A stretch of 64,000 nt of DNA from Pseudozobellia sp. WGM2. GTDB lineage: Bacteria; Bacteroidota; Bacteroidia; Flavobacteriales; Flavobacteriaceae. Of this stretch, positions 44,585 to 62,567 are shown in pieces (the first letter of the stretch is position 1; every line of letters begins with the position of its first letter). The stretch is from contig NZ_JADNYK010000001.1 in the NCBI RefSeq assembly GCF_017810075.1, forward strand, positions 124,001 through 188,000. Reading direction: 5' to 3'. Below the pieces are notes generated by a model. The model was not told the DNA's origin, did no database searches, and saw nothing but the letters and a program-made list of their open reading frames with translations. Both the position numbers and the translations under genes were made by a program.

Positions 44585-45829
44585 ATGGAACAAGATAAAA
44601 CTTTAAGAATAAAGAAAGGCACCCTTGCAGGTAGTGTGAAAGTGAGCGGAGCTAAGAACAGCTCACTACGGTTACTTGCTGCATCCTTACTTACCAAAGG
44701 ATCTATTGAACTTAAAAATTTTCCAAATGGACTTTTAGATGTTCAAGTTCATTTAAATATGCTTGAGGTGCTTGGTAAAAAATGTAAGGCTATAGAGGAT
44801 GAAATTACCATTGAGGAAAAAAACTCAACTATAACTACTTTAGAATGGAGTGGTCGCTCAATACGCAATACACTTTTGATATTAGGTGCGCTTACTGCTC
44901 GTCATGGCTATGGTAGAGTGCCTCTTCCAGGTGGATGTAAGCTAGGGGAAAGAAAATATGATTTGCATGTCATGTTGCTTGAGAATTTGGGAGCAAGAGT
45001 ATGGGAAGAAGGAGATTATCTTTGTGCTGAGGCTAAAATGGGCTTAGTGGCCAAAGATATACATCTACCGATGCGATCTACCGGAGCTACTGAGAATTCG
45101 ATAATATGTGCAAGTTTAGCGAAGGGGACCACTACAATATGGAATCCACATATTAGACCTGAAATCATAGACTTAATTGATATGTTGACAAAGATGGGAG
45201 CCAAGATAGAGGTGTTCGGTCAAAAATGTATAGTGGTCGAAGGGGTTTCTGAGCTATCAGGCGTGAAGCATACTGTTATCCCAGATAATATAGAAGCTTT
45301 AACTTGGGCAATTGGCGCGGTAATAACGCAGGGGGAGGTCGAAATTGAAAACTTTCCTTTTGAACATTTAGAGGTTCCACTTGTATATTTGCGAGAGAGC
45401 GGAATGAAATTTTATAGAGGTGGTACAAGTTTGATAGTGAAAGGTGGAGAAGCATACCCAATTGAGATTAGTACCGGTCCATACCCCGGTATAAATTCTG
45501 ATATGCAACCATTATTTGCAATTTATGGAGCTATGTCCAATGGAGTTTCGAAAATTGTCGATTTGAGATTTCCAGGTAGATACGGATATGCAGAAGAATT
45601 AGCGAAAATGGGTATGGAATATAAAGTTGATGGAGATATGCTGGTCATTAAAGGTGGTAATCGATTAAATGGTGCAAGAGTGAAAGCATTGGATTTGAGG
45701 GCAGGCATAGCCCTACTTTTGGCAGGTTTAACGGCAGAAGGAGAAACTATTATAGAAAGTTCTTGGCAAATTGGTAGAGGGTATGAAAATTTAGAAGAAA
45801 AATTGAGTGGGTTGGGAATTACTATTTAA
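44585..45829 (+). CDS. murA-like: MurA-family UDP-N-acetylglucosamine 1-carboxyvinyltransferase, paralogue in a polysaccharide locus
   Basis: A 414-residue EPSP-synthase-fold enzyme that should move enolpyruvate from phosphoenolpyruvate to O3 of UDP-GlcNAc or a relative. The residues known to matter in E. coli MurA are all recognisable: Lys24-Asn25 in SGAKNSS, Cys118 in LPGGCKLGERKYDLH (the fosfomycin-binding Cys), Arg123, Asp306 in GINSDMQPLF, Arg372 in DLRAGIAL and Arg398 in IGRGYENLEEK. The position after Arg123 is Lys rather than the usual Pro. It sits between glycosyltransferase genes and is not next to murB, murC or other wall genes, so it is more likely a locus-specific paralogue than the housekeeping enzyme. 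Confidence 0.88.
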   Translation: MEQDKTLRIKKGTLAGSVKVSGAKNSSLRLLAASLLTKGSIELKNFPNGLLDVQVHLNMLEVLGKKCKAIEDEITIEEKNSTITTLEWSGRSIRNTLLILGALTARHGYGRVPLPGGCKLGERKYDLHVMLLENLGARVWEEGDYLCAEAKMGLVAKDIHLPMRSTGATENSIICASLAKGTTTIWNPHIRPEIIDLIDMLTKMGAKIEVFGQKCIVVEGVSELSGVKHTVIPDNIEALTWAIGAVITQGEVEIENFPFEHLEVPLVYLRESGMKFYRGGTSLIVKGGEAYPIEISTGPYPGINSDMQPLFAIYGAMSNGVSKIVDLRFPGRYGYAEELAKMGMEYKVDGDMLVIKGGNRLNGARVKALDLRAGIALLLAGLTAEGETIIESSWQIGRGYENLEEKLSGLGITI

Positions 45830-45838
45830 GGAAGTGGA

Positions 45839-46378
45839 ATGAATTCTCTTAGAAAAACATTTTTCGATATTAAGAATGATTTAAGGTCGAATAGGGTTAC
45901 GTTAAAAGTTTTTGTCATAAACTATGTTTATAATTCGCAATTCAGGGTCTTGCTAAATCACCGTATTGGTAAGTATTTTTCAAATAGTAGCTTTTTCTTA
46001 TTTAAGCATCTAGGGGCATATTATAAAAAAGAATTAATAGTAAAGAGGAGTTGTGATATTTCCTATAACGCAGTAATCGGTAAGAAATTAACTTTGCCTC
46101 ATCCAATAGGAATAGTCATAGGTGATAAAGTTCTTGTAGAGGATAATGTTACTATATTTCAACAAGTAACCCTTGGTAGTCATGGTAAAAAAAGCAGAGA
46201 GAAACAATATCCTATAATCAGAAGTGGAGCTAAAATTTATACCGGTGCTAAAATTATAGGAGGTGTTACCATTGGTGAAAATGCAGTTATTGCAGCTAAT
46301 TGTGTTGTTAATATTGATGTGCCACCTAACACTGTTGCTGTTGGTATTCCCTGCAGAATTTTAAATAAAAAAGAATGA
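45839..46378 (+). CDS. Serine O-acetyltransferase-like (left-handed beta-helix) acetyltransferase
   Basis: A 179-residue hexapeptide-repeat protein. The left-handed beta-helix coil starts near residue 65 (YNAVIGKKLTLPHPIGIVIG, VLVEDNVTIFQQVTLGSHGKK, IYTGAKIIGGVTIGENAVIAANCVV, each a part of the coils) and the C-terminal IPCRIL is typical of CysE-like proteins. In this setting it more likely O-acetylates a sugar of the repeat unit than makes cysteine; the N-terminal 60 residues resemble the short helical part of locus-type SATs. It starts 9 bases after the MurA-family stop and overlaps the flippase gene by four bases (ATGA at 46375), so it is co-translated. Confidence 0.9.
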   Translation: MNSLRKTFFDIKNDLRSNRVTLKVFVINYVYNSQFRVLLNHRIGKYFSNSSFFLFKHLGAYYKKELIVKRSCDISYNAVIGKKLTLPHPIGIVIGDKVLVEDNVTIFQQVTLGSHGKKSREKQYPIIRSGAKIYTGAKIIGGVTIGENAVIAANCVVNIDVPPNTVAVGIPCRILNKKE

Positions 46379-47667
46379 AATCTTTCGTTTCAGATTTGTT
46401 CAGTGTAGGCATATCAAAGGTTCTGATGATTCTTTTTGGTCTTACTACTTCTATCATAGTTGCACGAACTTTGGGACCTGAAAAAAATGGAATTATTGCG
46501 GCTTTAATGGTATACCCTTCGTTATTTATGAGTATAGGCTCGTTGGGAATTAGACAATCAACGGCGTATTATTTAGGAAAAAAAATCTTTAATGAACGAG
46601 ATATAAAAACTGCAATCACCCAAATTTGGTTTATGACCGCCTTTTTGAGTGTAGTAGTTTGTTTTTTATTAATGAGATACCTAAGTAAGTCAGGTGACAA
46701 TCTTGATTTTGTGCTTTTGGCCCTTATCCCTATTCCTTTTTCATTGTTTGCTACCTATAATACCGGTATTTTTCTTGGTAAAAATCAAATCAGTTCATTT
46801 AATAAGATTAATTGGATACCTACACTCATTTTACTCCTGTTAACAGGTTTACTTGTTTGGTGGTTGTCTTATGGTATTGCAGGTTATCTGATAGCAATGA
46901 TTGGCGGACCGCTTTTTATATCCGTTGCTTTGCTTTATAGAAATAAGTTTGCTAGTGCGTTTAGCCTAAGATTTCGCTGGGGTATTATTAAAAAGATGTT
47001 AGGCTTAGGTCTTATTTATGCCTTTTCTTTGTTGGTAATTAATTTGAACTATAAGTTAGACGTAATTCTTTTAGATTATCTGAGTGTCCCTTTAGAGACG
47101 GGCATCTATTCAAAGGGATCAGCTATTACGCAATATTTGTGGCAAATTCCTATGCTCTTAAGTACTATCGTATTTGCAAGAAGTGCAGTTTCTAAAGATG
47201 ATAAGGCTTTTTCATACAAAATAACTCAACTTCTCCGATTATCTTTAGTTGCTATAGGTATAGGTTCTTTAGTACTTTTTTGTTTTTCGGAATTCATTAT
47301 TATTGGCATGTTTGGAGAGTCTTTCGAAGGAAGTGTAAGTGTACTAAATATTTTACTACCTGGTGTTCTGTTGCTAACCTTCTTCAAAGTAATGAATATG
47401 GATTTGGCAGGTAAAGGTAAACCATGGGTTGCTTTAAAGGCTATGGTGCCAGCTCTAATAGTTAATATAATTTTAAATTTTGTATTAATACCAGATTACG
47501 GAGCTGATGGAGCGTCCATTGCTTCTACCATTAGCTATAGTTTAGCAGCTATTTTGTTTCTATTTTTTTATAGCAAAGAGGTTGGTATACCTGTAAAATC
47601 TATTCTTTATTACAAAAAGAGTGATTTTATACCGGTATTTAAACTGATTAAAAAATTACGAGTTTAA
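46375..47667 (+). CDS. Wzx-type oligosaccharide flippase
   Basis: A 430-residue membrane protein of the polysaccharide biosynthesis (MATE-like MVF) family with about 12 to 14 helices. Family signature: the N-terminal SVGISKVLMILFGLTTSIIVA and ARTLGPEKNGIIAALMVYPS, the GSLGIRQSTAYYLG helix, and the C-terminal IPDYGADGASIASTISYS. It should flip the undecaprenyl-pyrophosphate-linked repeat across the inner membrane before polymerisation by the Wzy-type protein. It overlaps the preceding acetyltransferase gene by ATGA. With the initiating transferase and the polymerase it makes a complete Wzx/Wzy core. Confidence 0.92.
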   Translation: MKSFVSDLFSVGISKVLMILFGLTTSIIVARTLGPEKNGIIAALMVYPSLFMSIGSLGIRQSTAYYLGKKIFNERDIKTAITQIWFMTAFLSVVVCFLLMRYLSKSGDNLDFVLLALIPIPFSLFATYNTGIFLGKNQISSFNKINWIPTLILLLLTGLLVWWLSYGIAGYLIAMIGGPLFISVALLYRNKFASAFSLRFRWGIIKKMLGLGLIYAFSLLVINLNYKLDVILLDYLSVPLETGIYSKGSAITQYLWQIPMLLSTIVFARSAVSKDDKAFSYKITQLLRLSLVAIGIGSLVLFCFSEFIIIGMFGESFEGSVSVLNILLPGVLLLTFFKVMNMDLAGKGKPWVALKAMVPALIVNIILNFVLIPDYGADGASIASTISYSLAAILFLFFYSKEVGIPVKSILYYKKSDFIPVFKLIKKLRV

Positions 47668-49177: not shown

Positions 49178-50410
49178 GTGCTGGGCAAATATGTATTCGA
49201 AAATAATAAGGGAGTTTTTATAGTAGCCCAATCTTGGCCCTGTATGCCCTATGGCGGTTCAATTGCGATTACGGCCTCTTTACGTCAATATTGTAAGTTT
49301 TTTGATGATGTTGTATTCATATGTCTTGGGAAGGATGAAATATCACAAAATGCTGCTGAAACCTTTCCCACTGTCCATTTTCATTTTATCCACGTTCACA
49401 AAAAAAGTCTGACAAATCGTTTTCTTAGATCAATATTTTTTAATAGACCTGCCATTACTTTGAGCATGGGCGCAAATTCAGTTTTTTATAGTATTGTAGG
49501 AATTTTAAGCACTTATTTAACTAAAGGAAATTTATATAAATATGTTGGAATTGTTGAAGATAATGTTCCAGGTATTCATTTAATAAAATTAAAAGAAAGA
49601 TACCCTAATATGTTATGGGCCTTTAAGAGCCATGATGTTTTGCATAAGGCTTTTTCAATGTTTAAATCTACCGGAAATCCATTTTTTCGTTTAGCATGGT
49701 GGCATGAAATTGGTAAGATTTATCAATTTGAGTATGCTTTGATAAAAACAGCAGATGTAAAATGGGCAATAACTAAAGATGATTTGATTTTGAGTGAAAA
49801 ATGCTATGAAACCAATTTTGATGGTGTCTTTGATTCAGATATAGATTTAAGCAGGTATGAAAACATTCGAACAGGTAAATTAAATAATATAATTTATTTG
49901 GGTTCCGCTGATAGTAGAAAGGGTCATGGAATAAAAATGTTTATAAAAAATGTATGGCCTCAACTTTTGGACCGGTATTCAAATCGAATTGAATTAACAT
50001 TAGGAGGTAGGCAAACAGAAATATTTCATAACCAAAAAATAAGGGTTTCTGGTGTTGGTTTTATTAATGATGAAATTACTTTTTTAGGCAAAGGTGCTAT
50101 ATTCATAAATCCTCAAGTTGCTGGTTCAGGGCTAAAATTGAAGAGTATAATTGCAATGGCTGCCGGTAAAGTATTAGTTACAACTGAAAACGGTGCCCTT
50201 GGACTGGACGGTATTCCAGGTAAACATTATTGTGTTGCAAAATCGGATGAGCACATGATTCAAATAATTTCCCATTTAATTGATAATCCTACTTACGTCA
50301 AAAAAATAGCACTTGATGGACAAGAATTTGCTAAAGAAAGGTTTTCAAGACAGGCGTTTTCAGAAAGGGTACAACCATTATTAATTGATTATTGGAAAAA
50401 AGCTTTCTAA
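49178..50410 (+). CDS. Glycosyltransferase (GT4-like)
   Basis: A 410-residue GT-B-like protein. Seen: GVFIVAQSWPCMPYGGSIAI near residue 12, MLWAFKSHDVLHKAFSMF, NIIYLGSADSRKGHGIKMF and a donor-site-like INPQVAGSGLKLKSIIAMAAGKVLVTT (split) with GLDGIPGKHY. SGLKLKS...A(M)AAGKVLV is the usual C-terminal donor loop of exopolysaccharide GT4 enzymes such as those acting late in the unit. The start is GTG at 49178; no better in-frame ATG precedes the first motif. It follows a 293-base gap and ends 4 bases before the propeller gene. Confidence 0.82.
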   Translation: MLGKYVFENNKGVFIVAQSWPCMPYGGSIAITASLRQYCKFFDDVVFICLGKDEISQNAAETFPTVHFHFIHVHKKSLTNRFLRSIFFNRPAITLSMGANSVFYSIVGILSTYLTKGNLYKYVGIVEDNVPGIHLIKLKERYPNMLWAFKSHDVLHKAFSMFKSTGNPFFRLAWWHEIGKIYQFEYALIKTADVKWAITKDDLILSEKCYETNFDGVFDSDIDLSRYENIRTGKLNNIIYLGSADSRKGHGIKMFIKNVWPQLLDRYSNRIELTLGGRQTEIFHNQKIRVSGVGFINDEITFLGKGAIFINPQVAGSGLKLKSIIAMAAGKVLVTTENGALGLDGIPGKHYCVAKSDEHMIQIISHLIDNPTYVKKIALDGQEFAKERFSRQAFSERVQPLLIDYWKKAF

Positions 50411-50414
50411 AAAG

Positions 50415-51698
50415 ATGAATAGAGTAGAGAAAATTGTATATGATTTAGTGAAAAAAAAACCAAGAATTAAATTCTTTTTGCGCAATACATATCAGACCCT
50501 ATGTGATTTCATTCCCGTTAAAAATGAAATTTCACGTTTTCCGATAGAAGTCAGGGAAGGTTTCTTTTTTGGTTTTCATGATAAATGCCCGTTCTCAGCA
50601 GATGATACAATGCTTCTTGGTTGTATGTTTAGCATACCTTTGAGAATGCCGCGTTCAGATGATAAGCTTACTATAGGGTATTTCAGTGGTGATAATTATT
50701 CTAGCTTCAACAAGTTTTATGAAACGCGTTCATGGAACTGGCATCAAGGTTGTCAGTTGCAATGGAGGGGTTCTTCAAACGAGTTAGTATTTAATGATTT
50801 TAATGGTAAAATAAATCATGGCAAAGTTTATAACATAAATACATCTGAGGTTAGAGATTTATCTCGAGCAATTTCTACAGTGAGTTCTGACGGTTCATGG
50901 GCAGCTGGGTATAGTTTTGAAAGAATACATAGGTATATGCCAGGATATGGATACCCCCATGGCCATAGAAATGATATTGATAATGTGGCTCCGGAGACGG
51001 ACGGACTCTATTCTGTAGATATGGAAACAGGGAAGTCTTCTTTGATAGTAAGCATATCTCAAGTTGCGAGTTTTGAACCGAATATAGAAATGATGAAGGG
51101 TGGTAAACACTTCATTTCTCATGCCATAATATCTCCAAATAGTAAACGCGTCATGTTTTTGCATAGATGGGTGAAAAACGATTTGAGACATCGTTGGTCA
51201 CGAATGTTTACTTGTGATAAAGATGGTGGCAATCTATATCTCTTTCCCACTCATGAAATGGTTTCGCATATGGCTTGGAAAAACGATGGAAAACTCTTGG
51301 CTTATTGCCGCTTAAAGAATGAAATGGAGGGGTATGTATTGTTTGAAGACCAAAATATTACTAATTATGAATTTATAGGAAAAGACCATTTTACTTCAGA
51401 TGGTCACCCTTCGTTTGACAAATCGGACAAGTGGATGATAACCGACACCTATCCAGATAGATTTAGGAGGCAAAAACTACTTTTATTTAATACAAAAAGC
51501 AATCAGGTTGAAGAACTAGCTCTTCTCAAGCACTATAAAAGATATAGTCAATCCACAGAATTAAATGCTCGACTTTCTTGTGATCTTCACCCTCGATGGA
51601 ATCGTGAAGGGTCAATCGTTTGTTTCGATTCCGTACACACTGGCAAACGATCCTTGTGTACAATGAATATCAAACAAATAACGCATGGCGATAATTAG
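50415..51698 (+). CDS. Cytoplasmic beta-propeller (TolB/oligogalacturonate-lyase-like) protein
   Basis: A 427-residue protein without signal peptide or membrane helix. Repeated blade-like sequences are visible: RGSSNELVFNDFNGK, SDGSWAAGYSFERIHR, SPNSKRVMFLHRWVK, NDGKLLAYCRLK, FDKSDKWMITDTYPDR and DLHPRWNREGSIVCFDSVHTGK. The FDS/ITDT blade ends and the conserved His of HDKCPF, HQG, SHMAW, DGHPSF and DLHPRW recall PL22 oligogalacturonate lyase, a six- or seven-bladed propeller with a His-bound metal. An intracellular enzyme acting on uronic-acid polymer precursors is possible; a mere scaffold is also possible. An open frame starts at 50385, but ATG 50415 follows the preceding stop by four bases and is preferred. 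Confidence 0.7.
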   Translation: MNRVEKIVYDLVKKKPRIKFFLRNTYQTLCDFIPVKNEISRFPIEVREGFFFGFHDKCPFSADDTMLLGCMFSIPLRMPRSDDKLTIGYFSGDNYSSFNKFYETRSWNWHQGCQLQWRGSSNELVFNDFNGKINHGKVYNINTSEVRDLSRAISTVSSDGSWAAGYSFERIHRYMPGYGYPHGHRNDIDNVAPETDGLYSVDMETGKSSLIVSISQVASFEPNIEMMKGGKHFISHAIISPNSKRVMFLHRWVKNDLRHRWSRMFTCDKDGGNLYLFPTHEMVSHMAWKNDGKLLAYCRLKNEMEGYVLFEDQNITNYEFIGKDHFTSDGHPSFDKSDKWMITDTYPDRFRRQKLLLFNTKSNQVEELALLKHYKRYSQSTELNARLSCDLHPRWNREGSIVCFDSVHTGKRSLCTMNIKQITHGDN

Positions 51699-51727
51699 AG
51701 CAATGAATAAAGCAATAATTTCTGATT

Positions 51728-54547
51728 TTACGGATAAACAGCGCGACCATCGGCTAAAATTTTTGCGTTTAATGCCGCAATACCTATAGCTTGAGGGCCG
51801 AAGAAATTCAAGTGAGACTTATCATAATGAGCTTTAATCTTATTTTGAAGTTTTTGACTATAACGTGCTAAATTTAGCCATTCATGAATTTTACCTTGAG
51901 AACCATTACCTCCCGTACCGTCAATATTTCTTTTGATATGGTCAGTATTCGAATCTGACCATATAATATCTACTGTTTTAATTAGCGCGTTCATATCGCT
52001 TTTATTCCAATACATGCCATTTTCATATGCTAGCAACCAAAAGCTAACAATTGCACCGCCATGAGAAGTATCCTGTATATCAGAACCATGGCGCCCCCAT
52101 GTTTTATCCCAAGCGTAAGCCGAGGAGTTTTTAGGGTTTGGATAGATTTGATTTCGGAAATTTGATGGCTCACCAGGCATAGTGCCAAAAGACATATTCT
52201 CAAATACCTGCTTATACTTGTTCTTTTTGGTAATTAGATACAATTCCATACCTATTCGGGCCCAATGAGAAGACATATGAGTGTTGGATCTATAAATCTT
52301 AGACGAATGCTGGACATCATATCTTTCCCAGATGTGCTTTTCAGAAAAAGCCAATAAATCATTAAACTGATTTTTATATTTGGAACTTGATTTAATATTT
52401 GAAGATTGATGCATTATCCTTAAAAGAGTAGCTACAACTCTCCAGTAGTGGGTATCCCACAAGGCATATTCGTCCCCATCATGAGCAGGCCATCCCAAGT
52501 AACCACCTCCTACAGATGTCGTTTTGTCAACTGTTATGCCGACAATATCCAAGGCTGTATCTAAATATGAATTATCACCAGTTGCTTGCCACATAGAGGA
52601 TAGTCCATCAATATAAAGTCCCAAATAATAGTACTCTTGATTTTTACCTCTACTATTGGCCATGGAATAAGCTTTAGATCTCTCCGAAGACCATTTCGAA
52701 TCAAACAGGTTCTGCCAATATCTAACATCGGAACTCGTTGAAGGGGTTTCAGGGATTGGTTTTGGTTCAGCAGTAATAGTTATTGAATTGGTATGTTTTA
52801 ATCCCTCTTCATCTTTAACGGTTAGATTAACCTTATAGGTTCCGGGCTCTTCGAATGTTAGCTCCGGGTTTTCTTGATTGGATGTACCATAAACTCCAAA
52901 ATTCCAAGAATATGAAACTATGGCCTTATCATCGGAAGAATTTCTTCCTGAAAACTTAACTTCTAAGGGAACTTCGCCCTTACTGACATTAGCCTTGGCT
53001 ACAGCAATTGGAGATTGGTTAGCGGGCTCTGAAACAACAATTGTCAATGTTGTGTTATCCTCTAAACCTTCTTCATCTTTTACGGTAAGCTCAACTTCAA
53101 AAGTTCCGGATTTCTTATATGTGTGTTTCGGATTCTTTGTGGACGAAGATGTTCCATCCTTGAAATTCCATTTATAACTTTTAATTGATTTATCATCAGT
53201 TGAGCTACTAGCTTTGAATGAGATTTCTAACGGTAATTCACCAGCTGTAACATTAGCCGAAGCTTTTGCAATTGGCGCTTCATTTTTAGGCTCTTCCACC
53301 GTAATAGATATACTTGCAGTATCCTTAAGACCTTCTTCGTCCTGTACCGTCAATGTAACTTTGTAAACTCCGGCTTTATCAAATGTATGTGTAGGATGTT
53401 TTGAACTAGAAGTTGAATCATCGTCAAAATTCCACGTATGACGGACTATATTTTTGTCATCGCTAGCGTTGTTTGAATCAAATTTAATTTCTAAAGGGGC
53501 TTCTCCCTCTGTTTTATTAGCTTCAATTCTGGCAACGGGCTTTTCATTTACAGGTTCTATTATGGTCTCCTCTTCCTGTGTGGTCTCTTCCTGTGTGGTC
53601 TCTTCCTGTGTGGTCTCTTCCTGTGTGGTCTCTTCCTGTGTGGTCTCTTCCTGTGTGGTCTCTTCCTGTGTGGTCTCTTCCAGTGTGGTCTCCTCTTCCA
53701 GTGTGGTCTCCTCTTCCTGTGTGGTCTCCTCTTCTTCCACACTGAGATTTTCTTCTGTAGTAGAAGGAGTGTGTTCAACTATTGAAGATGAATCTAAAAC
53801 ATACTGGTCAATTTTACCTGCATCAACTGGTGCCTCATATGTGACTATTAATAATGGAGGCTCTACAGACGGATGTTCTTTAGAGGCGATGGCTAAATCA
53901 TCTCCTTGAGCATGTACTAAAATTAAGGTGGTACTTCTAGGTGATATTTCCTTAGGATTCAAAACTACTGTTTCCGTTTGCCCAACCTTATAATCTTTGT
54001 CGACTGTTCCGACTATATTTAAGGGTTCTGGTGCAATATCAGCATTGATATGTTCCTCTGTCCAAGAATCAGAATCACCTGTATGTACTTCAATCAAGCC
54101 ATCACCTGAATCTTTCTGAACGGTAAATTGAAAATGAGCCTCTACTATTTTTCCCTTTATACTATCTACGGCACTGAGGTCATATAATAAATAGCTCGTT
54201 CTTTTATTTTCTTGTAACCGTATTATTTCATGGTTAAAACCGCTTCCGTTCTCTATGTATGCATCTTCTAAAGGTGAAAAAGCAGCCGTACGGCTCTCAA
54301 TAGAAACACTATCTTCTTTTGCCTCTTCATCGTTCACGACTACTTCATCAGAATCAAATTTCTCATCTTCTGAAGCTTCTTCAGAGTCATCATTTTCTAT
54401 GATAGACTCCTCAGAAATTAAAACAGGAGAGTTTTTAATAGCATCATAAAATGAATCTTCGTCTTTATTACAGGAAAGACACAAAAAAATAAATAAGAAA
54501 TACGAGCAAAGAAAATTCTTTGCATTGGTTGTGGGGTTTAATTTCAT
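51728..54547 (-). CDS. Surface lipoprotein: DNRLRE-like domain, ETTQE repeats, three PKD domains, unrecognised C-terminal domain
   Basis: A 939-residue outer-membrane lipoprotein with Cys26 in the lipobox LCLSC and acidic residues after it (NKDED), resembling surface-export signals. Order: Asp/Glu-rich linker (30-80); a DNRLRE-like beta-sandwich (about 85-235, DAYIENGSGFNHEIIRLQ, TSYLLYDLS); a Thr/Glu linker with seven perfect ETTQE units (about 273-328); three PKD domains (about 333-418, 420-507, 508-595, for example HTWNFDDDSTSSSKHPTHTF and VKDEEGLE); and a C-terminal domain (about 608-939) with QEYYYLGLYI, MWQATGDNSYLD, LGWPAHDGDEYALWDTHYWR and HGGAIVSFW. That domain repeats in the next gene. 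It looks like an alpha/alpha-barrel fold but I cannot name it. Confidence 0.85.
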   Translation of the reverse strand: MKLNPTTNAKNFLCSYFLFIFLCLSCNKDEDSFYDAIKNSPVLISEESIIENDDSEEASEDEKFDSDEVVVNDEEAKEDSVSIESRTAAFSPLEDAYIENGSGFNHEIIRLQENKRTSYLLYDLSAVDSIKGKIVEAHFQFTVQKDSGDGLIEVHTGDSDSWTEEHINADIAPEPLNIVGTVDKDYKVGQTETVVLNPKEISPRSTTLILVHAQGDDLAIASKEHPSVEPPLLIVTYEAPVDAGKIDQYVLDSSSIVEHTPSTTEENLSVEEEETTQEEETTLEEETTLEETTQEETTQEETTQEETTQEETTQEETTQEETTQEEETIIEPVNEKPVARIEANKTEGEAPLEIKFDSNNASDDKNIVRHTWNFDDDSTSSSKHPTHTFDKAGVYKVTLTVQDEEGLKDTASISITVEEPKNEAPIAKASANVTAGELPLEISFKASSSTDDKSIKSYKWNFKDGTSSSTKNPKHTYKKSGTFEVELTVKDEEGLEDNTTLTIVVSEPANQSPIAVAKANVSKGEVPLEVKFSGRNSSDDKAIVSYSWNFGVYGTSNQENPELTFEEPGTYKVNLTVKDEEGLKHTNSITITAEPKPIPETPSTSSDVRYWQNLFDSKWSSERSKAYSMANSRGKNQEYYYLGLYIDGLSSMWQATGDNSYLDTALDIVGITVDKTTSVGGGYLGWPAHDGDEYALWDTHYWRVVATLLRIMHQSSNIKSSSKYKNQFNDLLAFSEKHIWERYDVQHSSKIYRSNTHMSSHWARIGMELYLITKKNKYKQVFENMSFGTMPGEPSNFRNQIYPNPKNSSAYAWDKTWGRHGSDIQDTSHGGAIVSFWLLAYENGMYWNKSDMNALIKTVDIIWSDSNTDHIKRNIDGTGGNGSQGKIHEWLNLARYSQKLQNKIKAHYDKSHLNFFGPQAIGIAALNAKILADGRAVYP
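53571..53726. repeat. 15-base tandem repeat encoding ETTQE units
   Basis: Seven perfect head-to-tail copies of a 15-base unit (TCTTCCTGTGTGGTC on the plus strand) fill 53571-53675, then one copy with a single change (53676-53690), then two 18-base versions with an added TCC (53691-53726). The unit length is a multiple of three, so copy-number change would lengthen or shorten the linker without breaking the reading frame of the minus-strand lipoprotein. Confidence 0.95.
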
Positions 54548-54908
54548 TTTATAGTAGACCTTTTTGCAAATTGTGGGGTTTAGATAAAGGTATCACAATG
54601 AAAAATCGTTCAAAAGCGATATTCATCGACTAAATACGAGGCAAAAATAGACTTTGGTCTTCTATAAACTAAAAATTAACTTTTTTTTAAGATATCTTGG
54701 TCCAGTTGTAGAAAATAACTTTTAATATAGATATGTGTAATCGGTTGTTGCTATAAGTATTTACTTAAAAAAACGTTCGGGTAATAAATTAAATACTATT
54801 GAAAAGTCTGGCATATTAAACTATCTAGCTATTTTAATAAAATTTCTAAATAATGGAAAAGCCACTCTTTACTAAGAGTGACCTTTACATGCTATCAAGT
54901 ATATTGGG
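54548..54908. other. 361-base gap between the two lipoprotein genes
   Basis: AT-rich, with the promoter of the 939-residue lipoprotein on the minus strand and a likely terminator of the next lipoprotein at 54857-54886. No open frame. The left 100 bases contain only short T-rich runs. Confidence 0.45.
54857..54886 (-). terminator. Intrinsic terminator after the 518-residue lipoprotein gene
   Basis: On the minus strand a stem of about 13 pairs (two of them G-T), AAAGGTCACTCTT and AAGAGTGGCTTTT with a loop of about three bases, ends in a T run. It begins about 20 bases downstream of the gene end at 54909. Confidence 0.6.
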
Positions 54909-56465
54909 TTAATTTTCGGGATATACAGGTCTTCCATCTGTAAGTATTTTAGCATTTAGTGCCCCAATACCTAAAACCTGAGATCCGAAAAAGTTAAGAT
55001 GTTTACCGTTATACGTTTCTCTAAGTCTTTTTTGAAGTTTAGCGTCATATCGGGCCAAATAAAACCACTCATGCAATCTACCTGGATTTGTGTATCCACC
55101 AGAGCCATCGACATTATTTTTAATTCTTGAAGGATCAGATTCGGTCCAAAAGATATCCATGGATTTTCTAAGTGCATCCATATCAGCTCTATTCCAGTAC
55201 ATGCCATTTTCCTCGGCCAGAACCCAGAAGTGAACTATTGCTCCTGCATGAGAGATGTCTTGCATATCTGAACCTTTTGAAACTCCCCAAGACTTATCGA
55301 AAGCGTAAGCTGCAGCGTTTTTTGGATTCGGAAATAGTTGATCTCTTAGGTTGGAAGGATAACCCTCCATTTTTCCGTGAGATATATTATCAAAAACTTC
55401 TTTATATTTCTTTTTTCCCGTTACAATATACAATTCCATTCCTAGCCTTGCCCAATGGGAAGCCATATGCGTTCTGGATCGATAAAGGTTACTTCTTCCA
55501 TAAGATTCATATCTATCCCATATGTGTTTTTCTGAAAAAGCTAATAGTTCTTCATACTTAGATTGATATCCTGAGGCTCGTAAATTTGGAGATTCGTGCA
55601 TGATTCGCACTAAAGTGGCTACGTGTCTCCAATAAAAGGTATCCCAAAGATTGTATTCGGTGCCATCATCTGTGGGCCAGCCGAGAAACCCATTTCCTAC
55701 TGAAACGGCATCTTCTATAGTGTTATCTATAAGCTCTATGGTAGTGTCGAGATATTCGTTATCTCCTGTCGCCTGCCACATTGCAATTTGACCGTTAATT
55801 AAATGTGCTAAAAAATAATATTCTTGTCTTTTATTCCGACTTTTTGATCTGGCTTCGGCATTTGAGGCATCGTCCTCTTTCCATTTCAAATCAAATAGTT
55901 TTTTCCAATGTAGAACATCATCGTTCATTTGAGTAATAACTACTGTGGCTTCCTGTTTTGTAGTTGAACCATCTTCTGCTTCAGTTTCAGTTGTGTAGGT
56001 GAAAGAGTCTTCTGACCCGTTTACTTCATTATCTTGTACTTCAGGAGTATCTTGATTTTGAGTAACCTCTTCATTGACCTCTTCACTGATTTCTTCTTGC
56101 ACGACTTCTTCGCTATTGGAATCGTTATTATTATCAGCGTTAGTTTCTTTAGTTGTTGGTATATAAGTTAAGGTGTCATCTTCATTAATTACTACTATTC
56201 CGTTTTTCGGGTCGGTAATTTCAATAATTTTGACATCATCGGGGTTGGCAATTATGTCATTAGACAATACATCAAGAATTAATTCGTCCGAATTATTCGA
56301 AGAGTAGTAGTCGTCTTTCAATATGGTAATCTGCATTTGATTTTCTAGACTGTCAGATACAACCAAATCAGTTAATAAGTCTGTATCCTTACTACAAGAG
56401 ATACTTAAAATAAGGGTAAACAAAGGTACCATCAACTTGATGACATTTAAATTAGAACTTTTCAT
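54909..56465 (-). CDS. Surface lipoprotein with Asp/Glu-rich linker and the same unrecognised C-terminal domain
   Basis: A 518-residue lipoprotein with lipobox Cys24 followed by SKDTD, suggesting surface export. Residues 45-165 contain a cadherin/VCBS-like segment (LILDVLSNDIIANPDDV, GIVVINEDDTLTYIPT, EDSFTYTTETEAEDGS) interrupted by an acidic Asn/Glu-rich linker. Residues about 181-518 are strongly similar over their whole length to residues 608-939 of the neighbouring lipoprotein: QEYYFLAHLI, MWQATGDNEYLD, LGWPTDDGTEYNLWDTFYWR, THMASHWARLGMELY, PNPKNAAAYAFDKSWG, HAGAIVHFW and LNFFGSQVLGIGALNAKIL. A lyase, hydrolase or binding protein for the locus polysaccharide is the natural guess, unproven. 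Confidence 0.82.
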   Translation of the reverse strand: MKSSNLNVIKLMVPLFTLILSISCSKDTDLLTDLVVSDSLENQMQITILKDDYYSSNNSDELILDVLSNDIIANPDDVKIIEITDPKNGIVVINEDDTLTYIPTTKETNADNNNDSNSEEVVQEEISEEVNEEVTQNQDTPEVQDNEVNGSEDSFTYTTETEAEDGSTTKQEATVVITQMNDDVLHWKKLFDLKWKEDDASNAEARSKSRNKRQEYYFLAHLINGQIAMWQATGDNEYLDTTIELIDNTIEDAVSVGNGFLGWPTDDGTEYNLWDTFYWRHVATLVRIMHESPNLRASGYQSKYEELLAFSEKHIWDRYESYGRSNLYRSRTHMASHWARLGMELYIVTGKKKYKEVFDNISHGKMEGYPSNLRDQLFPNPKNAAAYAFDKSWGVSKGSDMQDISHAGAIVHFWVLAEENGMYWNRADMDALRKSMDIFWTESDPSRIKNNVDGSGGYTNPGRLHEWFYLARYDAKLQKRLRETYNGKHLNFFGSQVLGIGALNAKILTDGRPVYPEN

Positions 56466-57437
56466 AAGTAGGTTAAATTTTTGAGCTTTAGCTTTGGGAC
56501 GCCGTAATTAAAGTCGTTAGAGCCTTTGGGAAAACACTATGGACTATTGTTAGTTTAAGTATTATATTACTGAAAAACACTATCAAGTTTATAACTTGAA
56601 ATAGCTTAGAGTACCATGATAATAATCTAAGAGGTCGATTCTACAATTTTATAACTGATAGTAGTACGAAATGTTGTTTAACGGTAGATTTTATAGATGA
56701 AATGCATGCCAATTGATAAAATAATCGATGAAATACTAAATACTTACAATTATTGTAAGATTTATTTTATTAAATAAAATATTTTTTTGATTAGTATTTT
56801 GATGTTGTAATATATTTTGACTGAAGCTTTTAAGCATTTTTTGTCTACGGAATATATTATAAAGCTAATGCATGTAGGTTAGAGTGGAGAAGAATTTTCA
56901 ATAAGGCTTCGAAACTTACTCGGAGTTTAAAATTTCAAAGCTTAAGGGACGATAATGCTAGAAATCTAAAAGGTCTACACTATCACATTCTTTACAGGAA
57001 GTAAAGTCTTTATTTATTGCTTTTTATATTTAATAGTGGCATCACTTAGTTAATATTTGAGTATAGAAAACATTGTAAGGGTTATGAAATTAATGTTGGA
57101 AGGGTGGAATTAATAATCAGCGTATCAACCATTACGATAGGTGCTTACTATATGGTTTGAAAATCTATAAAAAAATTAGACGGAATAGTCGATAGTCATA
57201 CACTTACTATAATAATGGACTACATATTAGTATGATTTAATTTTATAAACACAGGAAATAATTCAATTATCTAATTATTGATTCGATAGAAACAATGACG
57301 AAAGGAAGAATTTTATAGTGATAAATTATAAACATCCAATTTGGTAAAAAAAAACCTACGGAGCTAGCTCCGTAGGTGTAATGTTATGTTTTAAGATTTC
57401 AACTTTGTTTTATTAAAATTAATCTCGATTAGTATAC
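56466..57437. other. 972-base intergenic region without a recognisable gene
   Basis: The longest gene-free stretch of the window, very AT-rich, between the lipoprotein gene and the nucleotide-sugar operon. No frame of 60 codons or more, no tRNA-like cloverleaf and no transposase remnant is visible. The right end (57346-57378) holds the terminator of the nucleotide-sugar operon; the left end should hold the promoter of the lipoprotein gene. The middle is unexplained. Confidence 0.5.
57346..57378 (-). terminator. Intrinsic terminator of the nucleotide-sugar operon
   Basis: A perfect 24-base palindrome, ACCTACGGAGCT and AGCTCCGTAGGT (57354-57377), preceded on the plus strand by nine A (57346-57354), that is a T run after the stem on the minus strand. 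It lies about 60 bases downstream of the gene that ends at 57438. Confidence 0.9.
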
Positions 57438-58718
57438 TTATAGTCTCCCATCAACAGGAATTTTAAGTATACTCTTAACATCATATAATACTCCATTTTC
57501 ATTCAGACAAGATTTAATATCCATCTCCAAAAATTCTTTATGGGCTACAGTTAAAACTACCGCATCATAAGTCTCATTTGGTAAATTTTTGGTAGTCTCT
57601 ATTTGATACTCCCTCATAACTTCAGAACTTGAAGCCCAAGGGTCTAGAATCGTGATTTCCGTTCCATATGACTTCAAATTATTTATGACATCTACCGCTT
57701 TGGTATTTCGAACATCAGGACAGTTCTCTTTGAAAGTAATTCCTAAAATAAGAATTTTAGCCTTCTTAATTTTAATATCTCTTTGAACCATCAACTTTAT
57801 AACTTCAGAAGCAACGTATTTTCCCATTCCGTCATTCATTCGTCTTCCGGCTAAGATAATTTCCGGGTGGTAACCATATTCTTGAGCTTTCTGTGCTAAA
57901 TAATATGGGTCTACACCTATACAGTGTCCACCAACTAGTCCTGGCTTGAAGGGTAAAAAATTCCATTTCGTACCTGCAGCTTTTAGAACTTCGTCTGTGT
58001 CGACCCCCATGAGATTAAAAATTTTAGCCAGCTCATTTACGAAGGCGATATTAATATCTCTTTGGGAATTTTCTATAACTTTAGCGGCTTCCGCAACTTT
58101 AATACTTGGGGCTAAATATGTTCCTGCTGTAATAACGGAAGCATATAGCTGGTCTATTTTTTTTCCTATAATTGGGGTTGATCCAGAAGTGACCTTTAAA
58201 ATCTTTTCTACCGTGTGCTCTTTATCTCCAGGATTAATTCGCTCTGGAGAATAACCAACAAAAAAATCTTGATTGAATTTTAGATTGCTAACATTTTCAA
58301 GAACGGGTACACATTCGTCTTCCGTGGCCCCTGGGTAAACTGTAGATTCATAAACTACAACGTCCCCCTTTTTTAATACAGCACCTACAGTTTGACTGGC
58401 TTTGTAGAGAGGCGCTAAGATAGGTCGATTAGTACTGTCAACAGGAGTTGGTACAGTAATGATATAATAAGTACAGTCCTCGAGATTTTTTGATTGACTT
58501 GTACAAAATAGTCCCTTTTTATCTGTGGGGCTGTCGACTAAAACTTTATGAAGTATTTCATCACTTACTTCTAATGTGGTGTCGGTTCCAGATTGTAGTT
58601 CGTTTATTCTACTTTGATTAATGTCAAAGCCAACTACGGAATATTTTGTGGCAAAAAGCCTAGCGAGTGGCAAACCTACATATCCTAAGCCAATTATTGC
58701 TATTTTAGGTGAATTCAT
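57438..58718 (-). CDS. TviB/WbpA-type UDP-N-acetylhexosamine 6-dehydrogenase
   Basis: A 426-residue NAD-dependent enzyme oxidising C6 of UDP-GlcNAc or UDP-GalNAc to the uronic acid. Seen: Rossmann [18 protein letters not shown] (6-23), [27 protein letters not shown] (split), [14 protein letters not shown] (the long loop of the WbpA/TviB/VipA clade), the catalytic-Cys region [19 protein letters not shown] and [22 protein letters not shown]. The SPERINPGD stretch separates it from UDP-glucose dehydrogenases. It is 6 bases downstream of the TviC/WbpP-type epimerase gene, the same pairing as in the Vi-antigen route to UDP-GalNAcA. Confidence 0.93.
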
Positions 58719-58724
58719 ACTTAC

Positions 58725-59723
58725 TTAATTTAAATTATGCCAATACCAGTCCATTGCTGACTTTAAGCCAGTCTTGATGTCGTATTGGGGATTATATGCT
58801 AATTTTTCACGGGCTTTCTCTATTGATGCCAGTGAATGTGGAACATCTCCTTTCCGTTCTGGACCATACACAGCATCTACCTCCATTATTTTGGAATCAT
58901 AAGCCCTCAAATATTCCTTTAATAAGGTCACCAGCTCCTTTAGATTGGTGCGTTCTCCATATGCCACATTGTAAACGGTGTTAATGGCTTCCTTATTGTC
59001 TGTCATTAGTGCTCTTAAATTCATTTCAATGACATTATCAATATATGTGAAATCTCTAGAAAAACTCCCATCTCCATTGATGATTGGAGATTCATGATTC
59101 ATTAATTGAATGGTGAATTTCGGGATTACTGCTGCGTATGCACCGTTCGGGTCTTGTCTTCTGCCAAAGACATTAAAATAACGGAGGCCAACGGTTTCCA
59201 AACCATACGTTTTGGAGAAGACTTCGGCATATAGTTCGTTAACATATTTGGTTATAGCATAGGGGGATAAGGGTTTTCCGATTATTTCCTCTTTCTTGGG
59301 CATAGATATAGAATCTCCGTAGGTGGAAGAGCTGGCGGCATAGACAAAACGTCTGACGTGAGCATCTCTAGCAGCTACCAACATATTTAGAAATCCTGAA
59401 ACATTTACTTCATTACTGGTAATTGGGTCGTTTATTGAACGAGGAACTGATCCTAGAGCAGCCTGGTGGAGGATATAATCTACATTTTCACATGCTTTTA
59501 TACACGTTTCCAAGTTTCGAATGTCTCCCTCAATAAGAGTGTAATTTTCGTTTTCCAGAAATGGTTGTATATTTTCTCTTTTTCCGGTAGCAAAATTATC
59601 TAAACAGGTAACTTTATTACCATTTTTAAGTAAAAATTCGCTAATGTTGGAGCCGATAAAGCCCGCACCTCCAGTTACTAAAATTTTATAATTTGAAGGG
59701 AAGTTGATGTTAGCAAGTGCCAT
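58725..59723 (-). CDS. TviC/WbpP-type UDP-N-acetylhexosamine(uronate) 4-epimerase
   Basis: A 332-residue extended SDR epimerase interconverting UDP-GlcNAc/GlcNAcA and UDP-GalNAc/GalNAcA. Seen: ILVTGGAGFIGSNISEFLL (14-32), GSVPRSINDPITSNEVNVSG (about 95-114, diagnostic of WbpP/TviC), AASSSTYGDS, the catalytic YAITKYVNE (Tyr-x3-Lys) and DFTYIDNVIEMN. Start ATG at 59723. It lies upstream of the dehydrogenase in a minus-strand operon with the two genes that follow. Confidence 0.94.
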   Translation of the reverse strand: MALANINFPSNYKILVTGGAGFIGSNISEFLLKNGNKVTCLDNFATGKRENIQPFLENENYTLIEGDIRNLETCIKACENVDYILHQAALGSVPRSINDPITSNEVNVSGFLNMLVAARDAHVRRFVYAASSSTYGDSISMPKKEEIIGKPLSPYAITKYVNELYAEVFSKTYGLETVGLRYFNVFGRRQDPNGAYAAVIPKFTIQLMNHESPIINGDGSFSRDFTYIDNVIEMNLRALMTDNKEAINTVYNVAYGERTNLKELVTLLKEYLRAYDSKIMEVDAVYGPERKGDVPHSLASIEKAREKLAYNPQYDIKTGLKSAMDWYWHNLN

Positions 59724-59792: not shown

Positions 59793-60809
59793 TTACTTGG
59801 TGTAATAGGAATTGTACCAATCCACAAACTTTTGAACACCTTTGTTGACTTGGGTATTCGGTCTATAATTATAATCTTTGATTAAATCTGTAACATCCGC
59901 CCAGGTTCTTTCCACATCTCCGGGCTGCATGGGCATCATATTTTTCTCGGCTCTTTTTCCCATACTGTTTTCAATGGCTTCAATAAAGTCCATCAATTTA
60001 ACCGAATTGTTGTTACCGATATTATAGACTTTATATTTATCTCTTTTATCTGGGGAACTTGTAATGATTCTATAAACACCCTCTACTATGTCATCAATAT
60101 AGGTGAAATCTCTTTCCATTTTACCGTGATTAAACACCTTGATGGGTTTGCCGTTCGCTATGGCGTCGGTAAAAAGAAATAAGGCCATGTCGGGTCTTCC
60201 CCATGGCCCATAAACCGTGAAAAAACGTAATCCGGTAGTGGTGATATTAAAAAGATGGCTATAGGTGTGCGCCATTAGCTCATTACTCTTTTTACTTGCG
60301 GCGTAAAGACTAATAGGATGGTCAACACTATCATGGGTCGAAAATGGTATTTTTTCGTTCAGCCCATAAACACTAGAACTCGAGGCATATACCAAATGCT
60401 CGACCTTATTATGCCTACAACATTCCAGAAGGTTCAAATACCCTACAATATTACTGTCGATATAGGTTTCAGGATTTTCTATACTGTAACGGACCCCTGC
60501 TTGAGCAGCAAGATTGCAAACTTTAGAAATTTTTTCTTTTTTAAACAGTTGGGGTAGGGCATCTCTATCTTCTAAATTCATACGAACAAACGAAAATTTT
60601 TGTTTATGAATTGAGCTGTGAAATGTTTCTTTGAAAATTTCAGCGTTTTCTCGCGAGATTCCCAATTGTTCTAGTCGGCTGAATTTAAGATTAACATCGT
60701 AGTAATCATTAATATTATCCAAGCCAACCACCTCATGGCCTTCTTTGACCAATTTTTCACAAAGATGGTAGCCGATAAATCCAGCAGCCCCAGTGACTAA
60801 AATTTTCAT
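59793..60809 (-). CDS. UDP-glucuronate 4-epimerase-type SDR
   Basis: A 338-residue extended SDR. Seen: [20 protein letters not shown] (3-22), [51 protein letters not shown], catalytic [13 protein letters not shown] (Tyr-x3-Lys), [15 protein letters not shown] and the [16 protein letters not shown] stretch. The NDYYD and RPDMA motifs are typical of UDP-glucuronate epimerases (CapI, LspL) that make UDP-galacturonate. It overlaps the upstream UDP-glucose dehydrogenase gene by four bases (ATGA at 60806), so UDP-Glc to UDP-GlcA to UDP-GalA are encoded in succession. Confidence 0.92.
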
Positions 60810-62203
60810 GATTGACCTATTTTATAATATTGGAAACCTATCTTTTCCATATCTTCTTTTTGTAATAAACGTCTTCCGTCAAATACAAAGGCCGGCTTCA
60901 ACATTTTGTTGAAAATCTCTTTCCAAGAATAGCCCTTGAATTCATCCCACTCTGTAAGAATAGCTATGGCGTGAGCATCAACTGCTGCATCCATGGGGTC
61001 GTTTACCACTTTGAGAAGAGTTCTGTTTTCTTCGGGAGAGCGTGTGCCTAAATTATCTAGGTCGGCATAAATTTGTTTCTCAGAGACTTTAGGATCATAT
61101 ACGACAATCTCTGCCTTTTCTTCTAATAGAGCATCGGCGATGTTAATGGCTGCCGATTCTCTAGTGTCATTGGTGTCTTTTTTAAAGGCCCATCCGTAGA
61201 AAACTATTTTTTTTCCTGAAACGGTATTGTAAAGCGTAGAAATTATATTTTCGGCAAACCTTCTCTTTTGATAATCGTTCATGATGATTACTTGCTCCCA
61301 ATAGTCGGCTACTTCTGTTAAACCAAAACTTCGAGATATATATACCAAGTTTAAAATATCTTTTTGAAAACAAGAACCACCGAAACCTACCGAGGCATTT
61401 AAGAATTTAGCGCCGATTCGACTATCGGTACCAATAGCCCTTGAAACCTCGGCCACATTCGCATCAGTTCTTTCACAAAGTGCGGAAATTGCATTTATAG
61501 AAGACACTCTTTGTGCTAAAAAAGCATTGGCTACGAGCTTCGAAAGTTCTGAAGACCATACGTTTGTTTGAAGAATACGCTCTTTGGGCAACCAGTGTTC
61601 ATAAATTGAACTCAGCGTGTCTTTTGCTTCTTGACCTGAGGCTGTTTCATCACCACCTATTAAAACTCGGTCAGCTTTTAAAAGATCTTCTATTGCTGTG
61701 CCTTCTGCCAAAAATTCTGGGTTGGATAGAATTTCAAAATTCACACCATTCCCCGTATTTTCCAAGATACTTTTAATCGCACTGGCAGTTCTAACTGGTA
61801 GTGTAGATTTTTCAACAACGATTTTATCCGTTTTGGCGACTTTCGCAATGTTTCTAGCGCAGAGCTCTACAAATTTGAGGTCAGCAGCTTGACCCTTACC
61901 TTTTCCATAAGTTTTTGTAGGGGTGTTAACTGAAATGAAAATTATCTCGGCCTCATCGATAGCTTTATCAACTTCGGTAGTGAAAAAAAGATTTTTTCCT
62001 CTGGTCTTTTCTACAATTTCACTAAGACCTGGCTCATATACAGGAAGGTTATCTAGGTTGCTATCGTTCCATTGGTCGATCCTATTTTGATTGATGTCTA
62101 CGACGGTAACGGTGATTTCAGGACATTGACTAGCAATGACCGACATGGTTGGTCCACCCACGTATCCCGCACCTATACAGCAAATTTTATTAACTTTTTT
62201 CAT
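60806..62203 (-). CDS. ugd: UDP-glucose 6-dehydrogenase
   Basis: A 465-residue NAD-dependent dehydrogenase that makes UDP-glucuronate. Seen: [18 protein letters not shown] (6-23), [36 protein letters not shown], the catalytic Cys278 in [14 protein letters not shown] and [19 protein letters not shown]. The NPEFLAEG and GSCFQKD motifs place it in the eukaryote-like UGDH clade rather than the WbpA clade encoded at the other end of the operon. Upstream TTG at 62230 would add nine residues; ATG 62203 gives the usual start. It is the first gene of the minus-strand nucleotide-sugar operon. Confidence 0.95.
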
Positions 62204-62567
62204 GATAAAAGGCATTTCGTTTGGCTGCAAAGATTACCAATTAACTCAAAAAAAACCTACTTTTTTTCGATTAAAAAGAATTAATTCGGATTAAGCGAAA
62301 ATTGAAGACTTAATAACCTTGACTACTTTGGCTACTTTTATAGAGGTGCTTTTTCGTATTGTAAGTACATAACATCTATTAAGTGTTAATTACGACTGAT
62401 CAACTTTTCGCCATTTATCTAATATTCTGTGTGCTTGGTAGTATTTTTGGTATGAGTGTGACATCAGATTAAACGATAGTAATTATCTTCGCCTTTATAG
62501 TAGGTTTTCAGTATATGAAGATTCAAGTAAATTATCAATATAATAATAACCCAATTTTAATTACCAG
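62204..62567. other. 364-base divergent region between ugd and the UDP-glucuronate decarboxylase gene
   Basis: AT-rich, contains promoters in both directions. Short poly-A and poly-T runs flank a CCTAC core near 62250-62270, but no stem was drawn with confidence. No open frame of note. Confidence 0.4.

Follow-up and report, generated by a model that had tools for sequence, protein, structure and literature searches.

Two neighbouring lipoprotein genes in a 64,000-nucleotide stretch of the Pseudozobellia sp. WGM2 genome (contig NZ_JADNYK010000001.1, positions 124,001 to 188,000; here 'the window', whose own numbering is used) share a C-terminal domain that represents a real, unnamed enzyme-like family of known fold, most likely a depolymerase of the cell's own polymer common to surface-coat loci and phage tail modules. 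We report here that the domain is present in cultured Cellulophaga and Maribacter phages, mostly right after a tail-fibre gene. Since it is found both in coat gene clusters and beside phage tail-fibre genes, it probably cuts the bacterium's own coat, and we somewhat favour the reading that the domain belongs to a new family of six-hairpin enzymes, which act on the polysaccharide of their own producer and also serve phages as depolymerase.

In the mechanism that we propose, the shared domain would be a new polysaccharide-cleaving enzyme family with a six-hairpin (alpha/alpha)6 fold. The two copies would sit on the outer surface as lipoproteins, one of them with a carbohydrate-binding module and PKD spacers, and would cut the capsule or exopolysaccharide that their own locus produces, probably a uronic-acid-containing polymer. 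Cutting would set the length of the polymer or release it. Phages of related bacteria would use the domain beside their tail fibres, presumably attached to the virion, to open the host coat. The two genes and their parts are as follows (E, expect value).

51728..54547, minus strand: 939-residue lipoprotein gene (open reading frame); from N- to C-terminus lipobox, CBM96-like module, TTQEE linker, three PKD domains, toroid domain
51731..52735, minus strand: toroid domain of the 939-residue protein (P0001), placed by alignment to P0002
52757..53548, minus strand: PKD region, three PKD_4 stretches (Pfam PF18911, E 1.6e-59), outer limits approximate
53570..53728, minus strand: (TTQEE)n linker, a 15-bp tandem repeat of 10.2 copies (repeat search and translation)
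53828..54298, minus strand: CBM96 (DNRLRE-type) module, residues 84-240 of the 939-residue protein (PF24517, just under cut-off)
54909..56465, minus strand: 518-residue lipoprotein gene (open reading frame); from N- to C-terminus lipobox, acidic start, Ig/cadherin-like stretch, toroid domain
54912..55928, minus strand: toroid domain of the 518-residue protein (P0002), from the AlphaFold2 model
56136..56321, minus strand: Ig/cadherin-like stretch of the 518-residue protein (Big_9, under cut-off)

The two domains are identical at 194 of 335 positions (58%, E 4e-151), which rules out chance likeness. A preliminary description of this DNA had proposed the two minus-strand lipoprotein genes with a shared C-terminal domain; its reading frames are as given, its six quoted sequence blocks all appear in the comparison of the two domains, and its three PKD domains are recovered. 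It had also noted a lipobox followed by acidic residues, and inspection places the lipobox cysteines at C26, followed by N-K-D-E-D, in the larger protein and at C24, followed by S-K-D-T-D, in the smaller. In a study of Capnocytophaga canimorsus the optimal surface-export signal after the lipidated cysteine is C-X-K-(D/E)2-X (PMC5080379), which the larger protein matches exactly (C-N-K-D-E-D) and the smaller nearly (C-S-K-D-T-D). Lipobox-like sites were found in at least 27 of 40 bacterial domain proteins examined; this is a lower bound from a crude motif scan that overlooked some visible by eye (at loci L022, L028 and L056).

The N-terminal modules fared less evenly. The DNRLRE module proposed earlier, scanned alone, covers PF24517 at near full length (positions 4-163 of 164, E 2.2e-5) and scores 24.8 bits, below the gathering cut-off of 26; the scan of the whole 939-residue protein gave no CBM96 match at E<=1, and the module compared with PDB sequences gave nothing better than E 0.9. 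We take CBM96 and DNRLRE to be one domain type. For the region described as cadherin/VCBS-like in the 518-residue protein, Pfam matches exist and all are under cut-off (Cadherin_4, 22.6 versus 25.1 bits; Big_9, 21.8 versus 23.6). With the 518-residue protein as query, the window's own genome yielded both window genes and no further copy. Such side-by-side gene pairs are also found in Euzebyella marina (L021), Aurantibacter (L022) and Kriegella (L023); PKD domains are present in the larger protein of each, and the CBM96-like module is retained in L021 and L022.

Pfam and NCBIfam scans of the domain gave nothing above cut-off, in keeping with the earlier description, which named no known family for it. 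The commonest weak Pfam match is GH127 (13 of 44 members); for P0002 this is PF07944 at 16.3 bits versus 24.9, over one 36-residue stretch. The GH76 score of P0002 is under cut-off. The GH88 model matched neither P0002 nor the two whole window proteins at E<=1, and matched 2 of the 44 members weakly (best E 0.013). A profile search of PDB sequences gave partial matches only, mostly of one hairpin, and these weak matches include cellobiose 2-epimerase. No title or abstract found in the open-licence literature, to which the search was confined, describes the domain, and we make no claim that it is absent from print.

The AlphaFold2 model of P0002, built with a 44-row alignment, has a mean predicted local distance difference test (pLDDT) score of 96.6, a predicted template modelling (pTM) score of 0.94 and twelve main helices. 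VIA-align superposes it best on GH105 structures (4xuv, Z 21.2, 3.2 Å over 277 of 339 residues; 3k11, Z 20.3), followed by GH88 (4q88, 19.8), GH48 (4fus, 19.5), GH76 (4v1r, 19.2) and cellobiose 2-epimerase (9l8i, 18.6), with identities of 5-14% among the rows listed. Foldseek returned overlapping fold groups (best E 4e-4; query-normalised TM-scores 0.39-0.51 among the rows listed), and a viral structure library gave no match at E<=0.001. The copy from the Cellulophaga phage Ingeline, modelled separately and with less certainty (pLDDT 75.0), matched the same folds (GH76, Z 19.8). As modelled, the domain is a six-hairpin (alpha/alpha)6 toroid, as had been guessed from helix-turn patterns; this predicted fold is compatible with lyase and hydrolase alike and decides neither.

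Conserved residues were tabulated, in P0002 numbering, in a mixed alignment of 20 rows that includes phages and rows obtained without the search motif. D224 and H227 are present in all 20 rows; E/D96, R150 and D274 in 18 each; R101 in 17; H158 in 15; and H154 in 14, these two histidines both being missing from paralogues L011, L017 and L019. From conservation and predicted secondary structure these eight positions form a candidate pocket, and several lie where alternate (inner) helices begin or close by; the conserved histidines lie at the starts of helices 153-170 and 225-240. Dropping eight near-duplicates from the 52 domain sequences (2 from the window, 45 from genomes and 5 from viruses) left the 44 of alignment A4, whose invariance over T153-W159 partly reflects selection by the search pattern; H154 and H158 vary in alignments A2 and A5, which have rows without the pattern. 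In the alignment columns of A4 and A5 no conserved equivalent of the GH76 Asp-Asp pair (D136/D137 in 6shm) was seen. The residue pattern would suit a general acid/base site and does not separate hydrolase from lyase; with low confidence we put hydrolase somewhat ahead.

Scanning one genome per species with the peptide patterns [RN]THM[AS]SHW and [NRF]QEYY[FY]L[AG][YHL] gave 45 loci, mainly from Flavobacteriaceae, Myxococcota and relatives of Actinoplanes; many are from close Corallococcus species, and L033, L044 and L054 are short contigs. Copies occur in 9 of 299 Flavobacteriaceae genomes, in 2 of a sample of 395 from the phylum (one being the window's own) and, in the family to which the Myxococcus genome belongs, in 13 of 59. 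Two copies are common: seven of the nine Flavobacteriaceae genomes, the window's own included, have two, as do eleven of the 13 from the Myxococcus family (in a twelfth, two pieces of one gene appear). Domain identity to the window is 86% in E. marina CY01 (L021) and 98% in a genome of the same genus. A copy at L075:10784-12055 lies on a non-mobilizable 210-kb plasmid of Sandaracinus amylolyticus, where the listed neighbours, from an incomplete gene table, include no polysaccharide gene.

The window's genes were scanned at 33-35 kb and from 40 kb onwards; those near the lipoprotein genes encode, among others, glycosyltransferases, sugar-nucleotide enzymes and a flippase. The siting between assembly and sugar-nucleotide genes noted earlier is borne out, with the flippase on one side of the lipoprotein genes and nucleotide-sugar dehydrogenases on the other. 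To compare loci, neighbouring open reading frames were grouped into single-linkage BLAST clusters and eleven clusters were chosen as markers; members of a cluster may differ in role, and names come from Pfam on eight representatives and NCBIfam on the window members of the other three. Two or more markers were found at 32 of the 45 loci (Flavobacteriaceae 15/15, Myxococcota 12/18, Actinoplanes group 4/8, others 1/4) and one marker at four; homologues are thus not mostly outside polysaccharide loci, whereas a majority outside would, by the earlier description, have told against it. Each of the 15 Flavobacteriaceae loci has four or more markers of assembly type. As a control, the window's contig was scored in 19 stretches of 20 kb; none had two or more markers, in a sample that is a single contig of a single genome with no GC-rich stretch. 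At the Myxococcus sp. locus L045 the neighbours include Wzy, Wzc and a flippase, together with a glycosyltransferase and a protein of acetyltransferase type. Another Bacteroidota family has a distant copy (L104), which adjoins a dehydrogenase 77% identical to that of the Robiginitalea locus L056, with a 4-epimerase-type gene next.

A TviB-like dehydrogenase was considered as a diagnostic partner and rejected: it is in nine of nine domain-bearing Flavobacteriaceae genomes but also in 220 of 299 overall (E<=1e-150), so that genome-level co-occurrence is uninformative. It lies within about 5 kb of the domain gene in seven of those nine genomes, which is suggestive at most.

With tblastn the domain was found in 15 phage records: Maribacter phage Panino and, from Cellulophaga, phages Ingeline_1 to _8 with a further RefSeq copy, two records each of phi19:3 and phi12:1, and phi12:3. 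IMG/VR gave five copies, three of them distinct; with IMG/VR counted there are six distinct phage loci. The preliminary description, whose unnamed family, fold and polysaccharide link all stand, said nothing of these copies. The domain gene is annotated hypothetical in all four phage records opened. At four of the six loci (Ingeline, phi19:3, phi12:1 and L067, from IMG/VR) it directly follows a tail-fibre gene and so is encoded in the tail module, as expected of a phage tail depolymerase; the pairs are gp33-gp34 in Ingeline, gp094-gp095 in phi19:3 and gp50-gp51 in phi12:1. Ingeline gp33 is a 'structural protein' in MT732435 and a 'tail fiber protein' in NC_062749. Its tail-fibre PHROG match has E 1.2e-90, and that of the preceding gene in L067 has E 6.2e-21. 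The gene ahead is hypothetical in Panino and has no PHROG match in L069. PHROG 33201, of unknown function, takes in both phage copies scanned (L067, E 6.8e-29; Ingeline, E 3.4e-35).

Three of the phage proteins have a C-terminal tail akin to that of a virion structural protein, and so we read it as a virion-docking tail, a suggestion drawn from motifs. Ingeline gp34, phi19:3 gp095 and phi12:1 gp51 end in QKLIYWR(Y), and phi19:3 gp090, annotated as a virion structural protein, in QNLIYWRY; Panino gp92 and gp93 both have FINC at the C-terminus; and PHROG 22767, a virion-structural family, has a match in the tail of Ingeline gp34 (residues 419-434, E 8.8e-4). As a database query, the 30-residue tail recovered its source phage alone.

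Strongly hydrophobic, signal-peptide-like N-termini, odd for virion proteins, were seen in tail-fibre, pectate-lyase, structural and toroid genes: four in L072:3723-10131 (Ingeline), five in L073:638-8825 (phi19:3) and two in L069:2765-6020, by a crude hydrophobicity measure that is not a signal-peptide predictor. In phi12:1 and L067 neither the tail-fibre gene nor the toroid gene has one, and the Panino toroid gene has none either. Bartlau et al. note that lyase proteins of Ingeline and Nekkels have signal peptides (PMC8776804). The annotated start of phi19:3 gp095 (L073:8821-9990) may be misplaced: the frame is open and hydrophobic for 45 bases upstream, with no ATG, and the Ingeline copy aligns there. 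That of Panino gp92 overlaps gp93 (L071:8842-8908), and a later ATG (MARTFSQ...) may fit better.

A tree of 44 rows, with six phage rows and 30 of the 45 genome loci, interleaves phage and bacterial sequences: ownership has to change four times to account for the six phage rows, and a minimum of four is already forced by the starred branches. The phage rows are also somewhat clustered, since 12 of 500 label shuffles gave so low a count. Phi19:3 and phi12:1 together are sister to the copy of Robiginitalea L056 (support 100/98; 42-45% identical), whose locus has seven markers. Panino groups with the second copy of genome G222 (100/100). Ingeline, L069 and L020 have long branches, and the placement of Ingeline and L069 is unsure. 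The ownership changes and the Robiginitalea sister pair are our basis for proposing, tentatively and at somewhat less than even odds, that bacterial polysaccharide loci encode their own surface depolymerase and that tailed phages took the family up several times for their tails, or bacteria took it from phages, in which case the cutter in a host's assembly locus would predict which coat can be opened by its phages.

Panino links a phage copy to its host species, Maribacter halichondriae. In strain Hal144 of that species one copy (L028) belongs to a polysaccharide locus with six markers, and a second, a 660-residue open frame, lies elsewhere in the genome (L100). Panino forms turbid halos that grow with incubation, which its authors read as a sign of depolymerase, speaking of two depolymerases (PMC11590407). 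These halos are an indirect indication that the phage copies may cleave host surface polysaccharide.

Several points weigh against a self-polymer depolymerase. Our search found no activity assay for the domain; the PHROG, Foldseek and VIA-align results bear on fold and context, not function, and the same fold hosts epimerases. There is no universal second carboxylate, E96 being Q in phi19:3 and phi12:1 and D274 being N in Panino and L067. Nine of the 45 loci have no marker (L025, L033, L035, L036, L040, L047, L050, L063, L064), and the second copies in M. halichondriae (L100) and G222 (L099, seen on one side, at a contig end) have no marker neighbours. Panino gp92 is 29% identical to each of the two host-species copies, and for the Panino halo there are candidate genes other than gp92, which is annotated hypothetical.

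It is also conceivable, though unlikely, that the toroid has no catalytic role and binds sugar, tethering the polymer to the cell surface, and that in phages it is a receptor-binding protein. The lipoprotein anchor and the CBM96-like and PKD modules suit anchoring, as do the loss of both H154 and H158 from three paralogues, their patchy conservation elsewhere, and the position of phage copies after tail-fibre genes. Full conservation of D224 and H227 appears to exceed the needs of a lectin, however, and genes annotated pectate lyase lie nearby in the same operons of Ingeline and phi19:3, so that enzymes do occur in these modules. We take the phage tail-module copies to favour cutting over mere anchoring.

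Still less probable is a domain that modifies the polymer, for example as a uronyl epimerase acting after export with an active site like that of N-acylglucosamine or cellobiose 2-epimerase. Epimerases of the six-hairpin fold use histidine bases, the second of them in the last inner helix. The closeness of the cellobiose 2-epimerase fold, the weak profile matches and the two helices that begin with conserved histidines are in line with this proposal, but the last helix of the domain (308-331) has no conserved histidine among the columns tabulated, and phages would seem to gain little from epimerization. Polysaccharide utilisation loci commonly encode six-hairpin folds, and also surface lipoproteins that bear carbohydrate-binding modules. 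That the two proteins serve, like such loci, to digest polysaccharide from other organisms as food is very improbable given the glycan-making neighbours in the window and the assembly-type markers at every Flavobacteriaceae locus, although SusC/SusD genes might lie in the window at 1-33 kb or 35-40 kb.

A depolymerase of the producer's own coat can be set beside several known systems. The unsaturated uronyl hydrolases of GH105 and GH88, which usually act on oligosaccharide ends, share the six-hairpin toroid, the best structural match (GH105) and a uronic-acid context, but the domain is 8-13% identical to them in the rows listed and the window proteins do not match the curated GH88 model. GH76 alpha-1,6-mannanases and GH127 arabinofuranosidases share the fold and are the weak sequence matches that recur most often (over one hairpin in the cases with a stretch shown), whereas P0002 scores under both cut-offs and appears from its sequence to have no obvious conserved equivalent of the GH76 Asp-Asp pair. 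AlgL, BcsZ and PslG are enzymes encoded inside polysaccharide assembly loci and so resemble our case, in which a putative glycan-cleaving enzyme is encoded with glycan-making machinery; they are of other families, and the domain here is in lipoproteins, often two per genome, and is common to phages. Phage tail depolymerases share the adjoining tail-fibre genes, the proposed coat cleavage and the halos of Panino, but known ones are mostly beta-helix trimers and the domain is a toroid. PHROG 33201 takes in the two phage copies scanned, and to it we add the fold and the tie to bacterial polysaccharide loci. A family of Bacteroidota, Myxococcota and Actinomycetota, outside the coverage of Pfam and NCBIfam and of unknown function in PHROGs, thereby gains a fold, candidate active-site residues and a putative role. 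If the role is correct, it would offer new tools for cutting acidic exopolysaccharides and would connect the host range of phages of marine flavobacteria with a gene within the host's coat locus.

The surroundings of L099 and L100 have several neighbour genes in common, judged by their N-termini, some resembling a two-component pair, and may be a second conserved context. Other features of the window locus are as follows.

46375..47667, plus strand: polysaccharide flippase (Wzx type; Polysacc_synt, PF13440, E 7e-10)
54857..54886, minus strand: terminator-like hairpin 3' of the 518-residue gene (pattern match alone)
57354..57377, minus strand: terminator-like hairpin in the gap between the dehydrogenase gene and the 518-residue gene (pattern match alone)
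57438..58718, minus strand: TviB-like nucleotide-sugar dehydrogenase (TIGR03026, 392.7 bits versus 189.8; TviB model 538.7 versus 592, under cut-off)
58725..59723, minus strand: TviC-like nucleotide-sugar 4-epimerase (best NCBIfam NF011728, E 1.2e-114, under its cut-off)
60806..62230, minus strand: second nucleotide-sugar dehydrogenase, UDP-glucose type (TIGR03026, 336.8 bits versus 189.8)

The hairpin between the dehydrogenase and 518-residue genes suggests that the lipoprotein genes are possibly transcribed as their own unit; the pattern found eight such hairpins in the region versus 3.5 expected. Rfam gave nothing at gathering score in positions 50000-58000. A 437-residue protein encoded next to the lipoprotein genes (50385-51698, plus strand) has nothing over cut-off and weak WD40- and Dpp5-like matches. 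Within the locus there is also a MurA-like UDP-GlcNAc carboxyvinyltransferase gene at 44585-45829 on the plus strand (NF006873, 400.8 bits versus 297; TIGR01072, 384.1 versus 392.7), and the E. marina locus has an open reading frame of equal size at L021 18332-19576, compared by size alone.

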